From Leptolyngbyaceae cyanobacterium RU_5_1 (lineage in GTDB: Bacteria; Cyanobacteriota; Cyanobacteriia; Leptolyngbyales; Leptolyngbyaceae), in the NCBI GenBank assembly GCA_012034055.1, contig JAAUSG010000004.1:1-64000 (forward strand): DNA of 64,000 bases. The letters are read 5' to 3'. Below, in pieces: positions 6,511 to 34,096 of the stretch (within the stretch, counting starts at the first letter, position 1; each line of letters opens with the position of its first letter). The position numbers and the translations under genes were made by a program. The notes under the pieces are model-generated. The model searched no databases and was not told the DNA's origin. It saw only the letters and a list, made by a program, of their open reading frames with translations.

Positions 6511-6577
6511 AGAGAATTCAGACCACATTCGCACTATAGCCCTATCGGGCATTCAAGAAACGCACTTCGCACTTCAT

Positions 6578-29087: not shown

Positions 29088-30269
29088 CTAGCCTTCTGAA
29101 TCACCAGGAACGGCTGGGGCGATGTAGGCATCCAGTGCAGCCGTAATAGCTTGCTTTACTGTTGTGCTAACAGTGCTTTGAGCCTTGTCCTCAAAAGGGC
29201 GACTTAGGATGGGATCGTTGTCCGGATGTGGCTGCTTTGTTTCAACATTCATTGATCTAGTAGCTTGAAATTTAACTATCTCTATCAGGTTTGTACTTTG
29301 CTGCCAGTAATCTGCCAAATCTTCAGGTGTAATTTGCAACTTTTCACAATATTCGGCTTCTAAAGCAGCCAGGTGAGTTTCGTATAACTCCCTGACCTGA
29401 TTTTCAAGCTCTGCTGTATTGATCTCAATAGGAGCAGTGAACCGAATCATGAACCCATTGTTGGGATGATTCTCAAGGGCTTGAATCATGATGCTTTGCG
29501 CACTGTATACAAGTTGCAGATCTTGAAGCGATCGCACAAAAGCTTGCCAGTCAATACCTTTGTTAAAACTCAACTCAACAACTGTTGAAGTTTTTGCGAA
29601 GTCATCCTCTAAGGAGGACGACTCTATCGGGTTACTTTCTAGATCATCACAAATTGCGCCATCAAACTTAGTCTCACTGTTGATACTCCAATCCTTTAAA
29701 CAGGCTGTAGTGAGTACTGCCTGGGTGAAGTTAGTTCCTAGAGCTTGAGCTTTGAGTAAGTTAGCACTGGTCAGATCAGCTCCGGTCAGGTTGGACTGAT
29801 TTAGATTTGCCCCAGTCAAGTTGGCACCGCTGAGGTTTGCCTCGGTCAGATCAGCGCCACTCAAATCTGCCAGGCTGAGGTCAGCATTCCGGAGGTCAGC
29901 TTTGATGAAAGTAGCCTGACTGAGGTTCGTCTGACTCAGATCAACCAGCACCAGGTTCGCTTGACTCAGGTTCGCTTGACTGAGATCGGTCCACTTGAGG
30001 TTGGACTGACTCAGATTTGCCTGACTCAGATTTGCCCACTTAAGGTTAGTTTGACTGAAAGTCGCCCACTTAAGGTTAGCCTGACTCAGATTTGCCCACT
30101 TGAGGTTGGACTGACTCAGGTTTACTCGCTCGAAATCGGCTAAACTGAGATTTACTGAGCTGAGATTTGCTCCAGTGAGGTCAGGTCTTAACTCAGGATC
30201 GTTTCTCCGCCATTGATTCCAGGCATCTACCCCTTGTCTAATCAGAGCAAGATGTTCTTCGTTTGCCAT
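29088..30269 (-). CDS. Pentapeptide-repeat protein with a C-terminal domain
   Basis: A 393-residue protein. Residues 1-25 hold the segment IRQGVDAWNQWRR common in cyanobacterial members. About 30 pentapeptides follow (A(D/N)LSx type, with a run of NLSQANLKWA variants), which should form a right-handed quadrilateral beta-helix. The C-terminal 170 residues (from about 210) carry a conserved region around FNKGIDWQAFVRSLQDLQLV and an acidic tail. No signal peptide is visible. Function is unknown. The gene lies just downstream of the actin-like operon, separated by a 73-bp repeat. Confidence 0.85.
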   Translation of the reverse strand: MANEEHLALIRQGVDAWNQWRRNDPELRPDLTGANLSSVNLSLADFERVNLSQSNLKWANLSQANLKWATFSQTNLKWANLSQANLSQSNLKWTDLSQANLSQANLVLVDLSQTNLSQATFIKADLRNADLSLADLSGADLTEANLSGANLTGANLNQSNLTGADLTSANLLKAQALGTNFTQAVLTTACLKDWSINSETKFDGAICDDLESNPIESSSLEDDFAKTSTVVELSFNKGIDWQAFVRSLQDLQLVYSAQSIMIQALENHPNNGFMIRFTAPIEINTAELENQVRELYETHLAALEAEYCEKLQITPEDLADYWQQSTNLIEIVKFQATRSMNVETKQPHPDNDPILSRPFEDKAQSTVSTTVKQAITAALDAYIAPAVPGDSEG

Positions 30270-30307: not shown

Positions 30308-30380
30308 TAAACCTTGTCCACGTCCAGACCTGGAGTTTTTCTGAAGGGAACACTACAGATTCCAAGCTGGACGTAGTTTA
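30308..30380 (-). repeat. 73-bp dispersed repeat, copy 3
   Basis: Inverse orientation: it begins TAAACCTTGTCCACGTCC and ends AAGCTGGACGTAGTTTA. Its last three bases are the stop codon of the 124-residue gene. Confidence 0.9.
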
Positions 30381-30752
30381 GATTGGCGATCGCACCCTTG
30401 CCAGACTTCGTTGCTGTCTACGTTGAATTTGATGGCTTGCTTGCACAACCGTTCCCCTAGCGTACTGGCTCATGGCAAAAACAGGTATCTGCTTCACATG
30501 AACCTGATACTGAACATAGGGACCCTGGTGCAACATATAAACGGACTCTTTTGGGGCTATTCCAGCTTTAAGAGCTGCTGCTGCCACTGCTTCATCAAGT
30601 TTGATCGCAGCCCAATCATTTTCAGCAAAGCGTTGATAGAGTGTTCGGTAATCTAGGTCGGCTTCTCCAATCACTTGCCTGGCTTGGATTAGATACTGCT
30701 GCCGCGCCTCACGGCCCAACTCTTTGGCCGGTTCTTTTGGATCAAGCGTCAT
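30378..30752 (-). CDS. Hypothetical protein, third gene of the actin-like operon
   Basis: A 124-residue, mainly helical protein that I do not recognise. It starts with a charged region (DPKEPAKELGREARQQYLIQ), has a helical core (LDYRTLYQRFAENDWAAIKL) with an Ala-rich helix, and ends in a strongly basic tail (QIQRRQQRSLARVRSPI). The basic tail could bind nucleic acid. The stop codon is supplied by the end of a 73-bp repeat, so the C-terminus may have been trimmed by its insertion. It starts 12 bp after the preceding gene, clearly in the same operon. Confidence 0.7.
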   Translation of the reverse strand: MTLDPKEPAKELGREARQQYLIQARQVIGEADLDYRTLYQRFAENDWAAIKLDEAVAAAALKAGIAPKESVYMLHQGPYVQYQVHVKQIPVFAMSQYARGTVVQASHQIQRRQQRSLARVRSPI

Positions 30753-30764
30753 CGTAGTAAGCGG

Positions 30765-31277
30765 TTAGGCTGCCGCCTCAGCGCTGCTGCACAAATCCCC
30801 TAGTAGTGCATCTATATCGCAATTAATTTCCTCATTGATGTCCATATCGGTTGGCGGCAGCACGTTGGGAATTGTGTCTACGGATGATAGACCTGGAATT
30901 TCTGGATGCACTCTGACCAACTCGGCTATCAGTAGCTCTGATAGCATTTGCTTAATTTCAGTTTTGACATCATGGGCGATCGCGGCAGGACGTTCAATTC
31001 CAAACGTGCTACACAGCAGGTCGATTTGGCGGCAGAGCGCTTCCACCGCATCTCGTGCGATCGTCTGAAGTTCGTCCTCACTCACGTCTGCTTGGGCTTG
31101 ATAGGCAAAGGGCTTGTAGAACGCCACGATCGCATCGACCCCTTTGCGTTTCCCCTCTCGGCTACTAAAGTGCTGGTCTTTCAGCAAATACTGAAAGACA
31201 CACCCGACCACCGAATCCGAATCAGCATTAAAGGCAAACTGAATTCGTTGACGAACCGCTTCCTGTTTGGTAGCCAT
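30765..31277 (-). CDS. Hypothetical protein, second gene of the actin-like operon (ParR-like position)
   Basis: A 170-residue protein with no family I can name. The N-terminal 60 residues are basic and amphipathic (MATKQEAVRQRIQFAFNADS, SSREGKRKGVDAIVAFYKPF). A helical middle with two Cys (ALCRQIDLLCSTFG) and a long acidic C-terminus (MDINEEINCDIDALLGD) follow. The gene starts 14 bp after the ParM-like gene. In ParMRC plasmid systems the second gene is the DNA-binding adaptor ParR, so that role is a reasonable guess from position and the basic N-terminus only; I see no ribbon-helix-helix signature. Confidence 0.7.
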   Translation of the reverse strand: MATKQEAVRQRIQFAFNADSDSVVGCVFQYLLKDQHFSSREGKRKGVDAIVAFYKPFAYQAQADVSEDELQTIARDAVEALCRQIDLLCSTFGIERPAAIAHDVKTEIKQMLSELLIAELVRVHPEIPGLSSVDTIPNVLPPTDMDINEEINCDIDALLGDLCSSAEAAA

Positions 31278-31291
31278 TGCACCGACCTGAA

Positions 31292-32413
31292 TTAAGCTAA
31301 GACTTCAGTATACTTGCTCACTACTCCCTGAAATAAACCATAGCAATCTGCCATGCGCATCACCAGGGATGGATTATCTGCGGCATCGGGTAGTTCGTTC
31401 ACTACATCTTCTAATTTCTCTTGCCGTCCATCCGCAAATATCACCTGTTCAGTCAGCCGCAGCCCATCAAAGTATTGTTTGATAGTTTGGAACATCACAT
31501 AAGCCGCTCCACCGCTAATCAGAATATCGGCAGGCCCGTCTAGTTGCCCTAACAGATTATCTTGTAGATAAAGTTTAGCGGCCTTCCAGTAAGCTTGCCT
31601 GACCGCCTCAGCCGCCCCTGTAAAATCATACAGTTCTCCTCTAGCCTGGGAGATTTGCGTTGTCTTTCCGGTTGCCAGTGCGGCCATTAATGCCGGGTAA
31701 TCGGCAGGGGTTACCCCACAGCTCCGTGACACCCTCTCAAACACAGGCCAGAATCCGGGTCCATCTGAATTGGACTTAGCACTCTTCAGGCTGCCCTGTT
31801 CAAAACACAGCACCGACAAGTTGCGATGACCCAGCATCAGAATGAAGGTTCGTCGCTGGCTGATCGAAATTCCCATTCCATCGAGCTGTGCCATCCGATT
31901 CAGATAGAGACCAAACCCCTCTGGACAGAACTTGAGGTTCGCCCGAACCTGTTGAGCCATTCCCCGAAACCGGAAGCTTTGAGAAATCTGAGCGAGTTTC
32001 GCCGCAATCTCATCTTTCGTGCTCATTTCCGTGAGCGGTAGTGACATCCAGATGACTGCCTCATACTGGCTGGGCAGCCGTTCTCGCTCTGCAATCACGC
32101 CTAAGGCGGCAATGATTTTATAAACTGCCAGATTCGCCTTGTTTTCAGCGAAGCTATTCCCTTCGATAAAGGTCTTCGCTGCATCTCCGACGAGAATCAC
32201 CTCGTTGCCCACTTGTAACCAGGAATGATCTTGAGGTCGCCCTCCGGCATTCAGGGTCGATATGGCTAACGTTGTCAATCCATCGGCTACCCCCGATCCC
32301 ATCCAGAGGGGTTGTTTTTGTCCTTCCCGAACTCGGTAGAAGAACTTGGAACCAGACGTGCCAAGATCTCCAGCCAAATAAAGGACTGAGTTGGCAATTG
32401 TTGCCTGAGTCAT
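31292..32413 (-). CDS. ParM/StbA-like actin-family protein
   Basis: A 373-residue actin-fold ATPase. The phosphate-1 loop is AGDLGTSGSKFF (residues about 14-25), the phosphate-2 region is the divergent LMLGHRNLSVLCF (about 200) and the adenosine motif is ILISGGAAYVM (about 305). The spacing fits bacterial actins of the ParM/Alp group rather than MreB or FtsA. Such proteins form filaments that move DNA. Chromosomal relatives in cyanobacteria have been linked to cell shape. The gene heads a tight three-gene operon (14- and 12-bp gaps) and has paired GGTTA repeats in its upstream region. No plasmid replication gene is nearby. Confidence 0.8.
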   Translation of the reverse strand: MTQATIANSVLYLAGDLGTSGSKFFYRVREGQKQPLWMGSGVADGLTTLAISTLNAGGRPQDHSWLQVGNEVILVGDAAKTFIEGNSFAENKANLAVYKIIAALGVIAERERLPSQYEAVIWMSLPLTEMSTKDEIAAKLAQISQSFRFRGMAQQVRANLKFCPEGFGLYLNRMAQLDGMGISISQRRTFILMLGHRNLSVLCFEQGSLKSAKSNSDGPGFWPVFERVSRSCGVTPADYPALMAALATGKTTQISQARGELYDFTGAAEAVRQAYWKAAKLYLQDNLLGQLDGPADILISGGAAYVMFQTIKQYFDGLRLTEQVIFADGRQEKLEDVVNELPDAADNPSLVMRMADCYGLFQGVVSKYTEVLA

Positions 32414-32453
32414 GAGTATTGAGGAAAACGCTACAGCCTTTACTCTATGAAAT

Positions 32454-32533
32454 TTGGTTAGAAATGGTTAGAGAATAGTGCTCTTCTTCGTAAAGTCTTT
32501 AAATACGATGCCACTTTGGTTAAATATGGTTAG
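32454..32533. promoter_or_regulatory. Paired GGTTA direct repeats upstream of the actin-like operon
   Basis: Two copies of a pattern TTTGGTTAnAnATGGTTAG occur: GGTTA at 32456 and 32466, and at 32518 and 32528. Within each pair the repeats are exactly 10 bp apart, one helical turn; the pairs are 62 bp apart. This layout suits an operator or a parC-like centromere. It is 40-120 bp before the start of the ParM-like gene. Confidence 0.5.
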
Positions 32534-33073: not shown

Positions 33074-34096
33074 ATGAACAGCTCAGCGAAGACTAAATCG
33101 TCCCCACAGCATTTACTTCTATTAAGTTTATGGACTGGGTTGACGCTTCTATTTTTATATATTGGACTGCTACATAATGAGCTACCGAATAATGAGCTAC
33201 CGAGGAATGAATTTGAGAAGGATAAACCCATAAAGCAAATCTCATTGTTTTGGTCAGGAATCAGTAGTTTTCTGGTTTTTAAGATGGCTTATAAACTGGC
33301 TAAACGTAAGATTAAACACGAAATTCAGTATGAGGCTGAACAAGAGATTCAGCACCAGATTCAACATGAAACTCAACATGAAACTCAACATGAAACTCAA
33401 CATGAAACTCAACATGAAACTCAGTATGAAATTGAACATGAAACACAACACGAAATTCAATACGAACCAATAGCTCCTATCGAGCAGGTTTCGCAGCTCC
33501 TGTCGAGCAAGAGTATCCTAGATCGTCAAGCAGGAATTACACTTCTACAAGAGCTAATCAGTGATGGCGAAGATTTGACGGGACTGCATTTATCTGAGCT
33601 GAACTTAACCAGGGTTAATTTAGCGGGAGCCAGTTTATTTGGCACTGATTTAAGCAATACTGACTTGAGTGGTGCTGATTTGAGTGGTGCTGATTTGAGT
33701 GGTGCGATTCTTAGTAGCGCTAATCTTGATAGTGCTAACTTGAGTGAGGCTGATTTAAGTGAAGCCAAACTGAATGATGCGAATCTCCATAGAGCTAATC
33801 TTGGTAATGCCAAACTCAGGCAATCTGATCTGAGTGGTGCAAATTTGGACGGGGCAAATTTGGACGGGGCTAACCTGAATGGTGCCAATCTTTATGAAAC
33901 TAACCTGAATAATGCCAATCTAATTGGGGCTAGTCTTCTTGATATCAATTTCTGTAAAACTAACCTCAGAAAAGCAAATCTTTGGAAGGCATTTCTGGAT
34001 AGAGACAGCCTCAGTGAAGCATTTTTGGGCGGTACTACGATGCCTAACGGCGAACTTGTAAACGGAAGCCGTTCAGACGAATTGAGTGACGAGTAG
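33074..34096 (+). CDS. Membrane-anchored pentapeptide-repeat protein with an HETQ tandem repeat
   Basis: A 340-residue protein. Two membrane segments (HLLLLSLWTGLTLLFLYIGL and SLFWSGISSFLVFKMAYKLA) form a hairpin. A low-complexity region of about 45 residues follows, built of HETQ/YEIE-type tetrapeptides (12-bp DNA units CATGAAACTCAA at about 33366-33420), which should be helical. A short linker with GITLLQELISDGEDLTGLHL leads into about 25 pentapeptides (A(D/N)LSG type). It would display a beta-helix from the membrane through a rod. Function is unknown. Confidence 0.85.
   Translation: MNSSAKTKSSPQHLLLLSLWTGLTLLFLYIGLLHNELPNNELPRNEFEKDKPIKQISLFWSGISSFLVFKMAYKLAKRKIKHEIQYEAEQEIQHQIQHETQHETQHETQHETQHETQYEIEHETQHEIQYEPIAPIEQVSQLLSSKSILDRQAGITLLQELISDGEDLTGLHLSELNLTRVNLAGASLFGTDLSNTDLSGADLSGADLSGAILSSANLDSANLSEADLSEAKLNDANLHRANLGNAKLRQSDLSGANLDGANLDGANLNGANLYETNLNNANLIGASLLDINFCKTNLRKANLWKAFLDRDSLSEAFLGGTTMPNGELVNGSRSDELSDE

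Follow-up and report, generated by a model that had tools for sequence, protein, structure and literature searches.

A plasmid-type actin operon with helically phased upstream repeats in a chromosomal setting of a Leptolyngbyaceae cyanobacterium

Plasmids with a ParMRC system carry iterons, an actin gene and a small DNA-binding adaptor gene in this order. In the Leptolyngbyaceae cyanobacterium RU_5_1, an operon of this layout is located among chromosomal genes. It raises the question of whether the operon still serves the movement of DNA, has become a cytoskeletal system as reported in Anabaena, or is a remnant of an integrated plasmid. The window analyzed here is a stretch of 64 kb from one contig of the 382-contig assembly (5.6 Mb, 88% complete).

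Layout of the operon and its upstream repeats

The operon is read from the minus strand. The actin-like ATPase gene (31292..32413, 373 aa) is parM-like and of the plasmid type according to PHROG, PDB profiles, the tree and signature residues. It is followed after 14 bp by the ORF of a putative parR-like adaptor, here called R (30765..31277, 170 aa), and after a further 12 bp by the ORF of a third gene (30378..30752, 124 aa). These coordinates and gaps, given by a sequence-only reading of the same DNA, were reproduced from the ORFs. That reading had left out two flanking genes encoding pentapeptide-repeat proteins, which form a conserved block with the operon, and the relaxase connection of the third gene. 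One pentapeptide gene lies downstream in the direction of the operon (29088..30269, minus strand), while the other is divergent from it (33074..34096, plus strand) and encodes hydrophobic N-terminal segments. In the divergent gene, in-frame tandem HETQ/HEIQ-like units (33317-33472) separate the hydrophobic segment from the pentapeptide domain.

The upstream region contains the GGTTA pairs described before, with the exact spacing of 10 bp and a distance of 62 bp between the starts. The 64-kb window contains exactly two copies of the motif GGTTANNNNNGGTTA (32456-32470 and 32518-32532, plus strand), where 0.05 copies are expected, and this number was reached in 1 of 100 shuffles. In the reading direction of the actin, the pairs are TAACCATTTCTAACCA (proximal) and TAACCATATTTAACCA (distal). 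Taken as iterons on the minus strand, the proximal pair TAACCATTTCTAACC (32456..32470) is located just upstream of the start codon and of the presumed -10 region of the promoter, and the distal pair, TAACCATATTTAACC in the direction of the actin (32518..32532), consists of two half-sites 10 bp apart. Exact 6-mers repeated at a lag of 10 or 11 bp numbered four in the 250 bp upstream of the window actin, compared with a mean of 0.12 in shuffled sequences (p=0.003). A sigma-70 scan of the upstream region showed no consensus promoter beyond chance. Genome-wide, TAACCAN4TAACCA was found four times, two of them at the operon, and the backward control pattern three times; there is therefore no excess elsewhere in the genome, which suggests a local operator or centromere and not a dispersed parS.

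The sequence-only reading recognized a ParMRC-like layout on a chromosome, and both the gene order and the phased repeats are kept in relatives. The order of actin, R and third gene is retained in all four relatives L002, L003, L004 and L006, whose actins are 83, 82, 76 and 54% identical to that of the window, respectively. The idea that the GGTTA pairs would be conserved upstream of orthologues held for the proximal pair, in which both half-sites are identical in the window and its three closest independent relatives, L002, L003 and L004. It held only partly for the distal pair, which is intact in L002, has one altered half-site in L003 and does not occur at the corresponding position in L004. 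A variant pair with an unchanged period, TATCCATTTATATCCA, was observed in L006. In L012 and L013 (L072 and L073 in a second locus numbering) the repeat sequence differs (GTTCCATTCGG, ATGGTCGGATC), and the repeats clearly form two clusters with a period of 11 bp. Lags of 10 or 11 bp, and multiples of them (20-22, 33 and 44 bp), occur upstream of many plasmid ParMs as well as of the actins of the window clade, L006 and L012/L013. The top lags at other ParM-type loci were 10, 22, 33 and 11 bp, and pLBX and several other ParM-type loci showed no lag-10/11 repeats within the 250 bp tested.

A separate observation concerns L073 (G015 contig 1, 5.35 Mb). Upstream of its actin at 6517 there are two clusters, each with three near-perfect 11-bp ATGGTCGGATC repeats, and they precede an actin/R pair adjoining a TrwC relaxase on an apparent chromosome. 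This locus looks like a further chromosomal parC, stronger than that of the window.

It is reported that type II centromeres consist of tandem repeats upstream of the operon, which are 10-bp repeats in a continuous array in pSK41 and are split into two clusters with the promoter between them in R1 parC (PMC5016525). The split clusters of the window resemble R1 parC, and its 10-bp repeats resemble pSK41. By analogy with these systems, it is quite likely that the phased direct repeats upstream of the operon are the binding site of R.

R relatives are located directly downstream of most ParM-type actins, including that of plasmid pLBX, and a small adaptor adjoining the actin is present and conserved in the relatives. 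The N-terminal half of R is conserved, the middle is variable and the C-terminal tail is acidic (LLGDL). Comparison with Pfam and PDB gave no significant family match and no ribbon-helix-helix (RHH) family, and the AlphaFold model, built from a 6-row alignment, was unreliable (pLDDT 46).

Plasmid descent and the relaxase connection

The window actin matched a PHROG 'partition protein' (E=5e-9), and its profile matched CorM (E=8e-18) and clostridial ParM (E=8e-6) in the PDB. In a quick tree of 76 rows, it groups with the actins of L002-L004, L006, L012 and L013 (support 100) among cyanobacterial plasmid ParMs, while a branch with a length of 3.05 changes per site (support 100) separates CorM (PDB 9rmi) and its chromosomal orthologues from them. 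Several end branches of this tree are long, yet the split between ParM and CorM does not depend on them. The gene encodes an actin-fold ATPase of the ParM branch, and these comparisons make its origin from the partition genes of plasmids almost certain. A search for further actins of this type in the window genome found none.

The third gene points in the same direction. Its profile matched the C-termini of MOBP relaxases (E 3e-10, 8e-9 and 4e-7; weaker in others). The three matched frames have 606-609 aa and each lies beside an actin operon; one of them is annotated as a relaxase, on plasmid1 of Leptolyngbya NIES-3755. The third gene therefore encodes a stand-alone homologue of a relaxase C-terminal domain. 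The model of the protein is confident (pLDDT 92) and all-helical with six helices, and neither the fold search against PDB and viral models nor the sequence search against PDB and Pfam gave a significant match. A single-sequence search found no third gene on plasmids, but the profile search does find plasmid copies. L006 has two tandem third genes. On some plasmids two copies of the domain are fused; such tandem two-domain proteins were observed in L069 (3366-4202), L074 (1443-2252) and L070 (8019-8855), preceded in L069 by a TSP3-type calcium-binding repeat.

The three genes have the same order on plasmid pLBX of L. boryana, where a MobF relaxase gene is divergent on the other side of the intergenic region; the actin, adaptor and third gene of pLBX are 31, 24 and 25% identical to those of the window. 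A conjugative relaxase gene is divergent to the operon in most plasmid-type relatives, as verified by Pfam at 15 loci (L006, L067, L068, L070-L075, L080, L082-L085 and L126), nine with the TrwC type and six with the MobA/VirD2 type. The pairing at these loci places the centromere, and possibly oriT, in one intergenic region. The three-gene order on pLBX, the divergent relaxases and the relaxase-type third gene indicate that the window operon was once part of a partition-mobilisation region on a plasmid. Where the plasmid relatives have the relaxase, the window and three relatives carry a pentapeptide-repeat gene, and no TrwC relaxase was found in the 88%-complete window genome; the relaxase would have been lost from this position. 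Judging from its homology, the third protein is a left-over or re-used relaxase-type helical domain, which would probably be an accessory of the DNA-bound complex.

Chromosomal setting and conservation of the locus

The window contains genes for PilM, a PilQ-like secretin, SMC, magnesium chelatase H (chlH) and an FtsW/RodA-type protein, and no tRNA genes. Two points could suggest a large plasmid or chromid misread as chromosome: the contig of the window is 64 kb long in an assembly of 382 contigs, and relatives in gene order are plasmid-borne (pLBX, 505 kb). We consider this very improbable, since the window carries the marker genes named above, L003 is located beside topoisomerase I-like and alanine-dehydrogenase-like genes (named by eye) on a 338-kb contig, and L006, from Leptolyngbya PCC 7375, is on an 8.2-Mb scaffold.

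The window, L002, L003 and L004 have in common a block of five genes, consisting of the divergent pentapeptide gene, actin, R, the third gene and the second pentapeptide gene, and the block was found in three different surroundings. The downstream pentapeptide protein is 45-50% and the divergent one 39-42% identical to the relatives. The SMC proteins of these genomes are 58-68% identical to that of the window, and the actins of L002-L004 (76-83%) are therefore more strongly conserved than SMC. The dN/dS of the actin between L002 and L003 was 0.02, and synonymous sites between the window and its relatives are saturated. This strong purifying selection on the actin, together with the saturation, indicates that the operon was not inserted recently.

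The clade is rare. Besides L002-L006, the search of ~430 genomes found one further contig, which is the same as L005, and a search of IMG/VR found no relatives. L005 (RM1_1_2) was rejected as an independent genome. Its 3-kb contig is nearly identical to L002, the actin is frame-shifted, and SMC of that genome is 59% identical to that of the window, so mis-binning is likely.

The operon might also be an integrated plasmid remnant with no host role of its own, which possibly interferes with incoming plasmids bearing matching iterons. The clear plasmid descent and the relaxase-type third gene agree with this, as does L006, which still adjoins a TrwC relaxase on the large scaffold of PCC 7375. On the other hand, the selection on the actin and the saturated synonymous sites, the intact reading frames and repeats in several genomes, the lack of a relaxase near the window copy and the constancy of the five-gene block across its surroundings make this explanation rather improbable.

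Relation to the cell-shape actins and a possible role

It is reported that plasmid actins were recruited to cell shape once in cyanobacteria, and FcmBC of Nostoc punctiforme is the precedent for a cyanobacterial plasmid actin turned cytoskeleton (PMC12645912). Like FcmB/FcmC and CorM of Anabaena, the window has a chromosomal, ParM-derived actin with a small adaptor gene downstream. In the CorMR/FcmBC system, filaments are located at the membrane and cells become rounded on deletion. FcmB was assigned to the CorM clade from its published description (chromosomal, adaptor directly downstream, in heterocyst formers; PMC12645912).

The sequence-only reading had drawn a link to the Anabaena cell-shape system. 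The link stands as regards the layout and a distant descent, but the two systems are separate: the window actin lies outside the CorM/FcmB clade, and the signature residues differ. The phosphate-2 aspartate is D in 15/15 CorM-type actins, which keep it, and in 0/61 of the ParM type (56 M, 2 V, 2 I and 1 L), the window actin included; R197 is invariant across the ParM type and is Q in the CorM type. The window position is M193 (31835-31837), and the 61 ParM-type actins come from L001-L066 and L098. From this pattern, loss of the aspartate in cyanobacterial plasmid-type ParMs may lead to unusual nucleotide hydrolysis. The 12 CorM/FcmB-type loci are essentially without phased repeats, with one lag-10/11 match in total; their adaptor sequence is different and no third-gene relative was seen there. 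R lacks the FQWSKK N-terminus typical of FcmC-type proteins, and a profile comparison with FcmC-type adaptors was suggestive only (E 2e-4, probability 44%, 80 N-terminal columns). Moreover, both types occur on one scaffold in Leptolyngbya PCC 7375, which shows that the window system is not the Anabaena/Nostoc cell-shape system.

A second, independent recruitment of a plasmid actin to a membrane or cell-shape cytoskeleton could have occurred, similar to CorMR/FcmBC without being orthologous to it, with the repeats as an operator only. Besides the FcmBC precedent, it agrees with the conservation of both flanking pentapeptide genes, one of which encodes hydrophobic N-terminal segments, and with CorM being absent from the genomes of the window, L003 and L004, so that the niche may be free. 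This absence in MAGs may, however, reflect incompleteness, PCC 7375 keeps both systems, the proximal repeats are strictly conserved and R is not of the FcmC type at its N-terminus. We therefore regard such a recruitment as unlikely.

We favor, as probable on balance, a chromosomally established type II ParMRC module that came from a plasmid partition/mobilisation region, in which R would bind the TAACC pairs, repress the operon and tether actin filaments. The TAACC pairs would act as parC. The half-sites, which share one face of the DNA and form two clusters separated by about six helical turns, would be bound by small R dimers, and R bridging both clusters would close a loop and repress the operon promoter. 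The acidic R tail (LLGDL) would engage the filament end, and in this way actin filaments would be held or nucleated at the locus on the chromosome, while the pentapeptide-repeat gene would have taken the place of the lost relaxase. The window resembles the type II ParMRC systems of R1, pSK41 and cyanobacterial ParM/StbA operons such as that of pLBX in the order of actin and adaptor, the adaptor just downstream and the helically phased upstream repeats in two clusters. It is different from those plasmids in its chromosomal location, the pentapeptide gene in place of the divergent relaxase, its four half-sites and the relaxase-type third gene.

For the claim that the filaments act on DNA at the operon locus, the arguments are evenly balanced. 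The proximal repeats have been conserved along with the actin, which favors a continued DNA-bound role, and the pentapeptide neighbors leave a membrane role possible; one of them has hydrophobic segments, and they could point to such a role. Against partition, only two pairs with four half-sites remain, and L004 is without the distal pair at the usual place. The parC of plasmid R1 has ten iterons. The lack of a match between R and any recognized DNA-binding family, its poor model and the rarity of the clade also speak against this reading. The cyanobacterial chromosome is probably polyploid, and it is unproven that a single parC-like locus can serve its segregation.

Chromosome-encoded cParMR/cParCMR systems, whose role is unknown, are described in the Firmicutes Desulfitobacterium and Clostridium, and ParCMR systems are not yet implicated in chromosome segregation (PMC12270681). 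The likeness consists of a ParM and an adaptor on the chromosome, and C. botulinum also has a repeat parC; the relaxase-type third gene and pentapeptide neighbors are not described for these Firmicutes systems in the sections consulted (PMC12270681). As in cParMR (JBC 2025), to judge by its description, the chromosomal ParM and adaptor of the window are conserved among related genomes. What is new here is a separate cyanobacterial chromosomal clade with centromere-like repeats, a relaxase-type third gene, partition-relaxase pairing and a five-gene pentapeptide block.

To judge from the relaxase-type third gene and the pairing of partition operons with relaxases, partition and transfer of cyanobacterial plasmids appear to be linked; the literature searched contained no paper on such a link. 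In the lineage lacking CorM/FcmB, a domesticated and centromere-bound plasmid ParMRC, joined to pentapeptide-repeat proteins of which one is probably a membrane protein, might even tether and move a chromosomal locus as actin-driven chromosome positioning, although we hold this to be doubtful. The window locus is a candidate for a ParCMR role in chromosome segregation, for example in the isolate FACHB-471. Here a member of the same plasmid family has settled separately on a chromosome and has kept the centromere-like repeats, and a comparison of this locus with the cell-shape actin may indicate what turns a DNA-segregating actin into a cytoskeleton.
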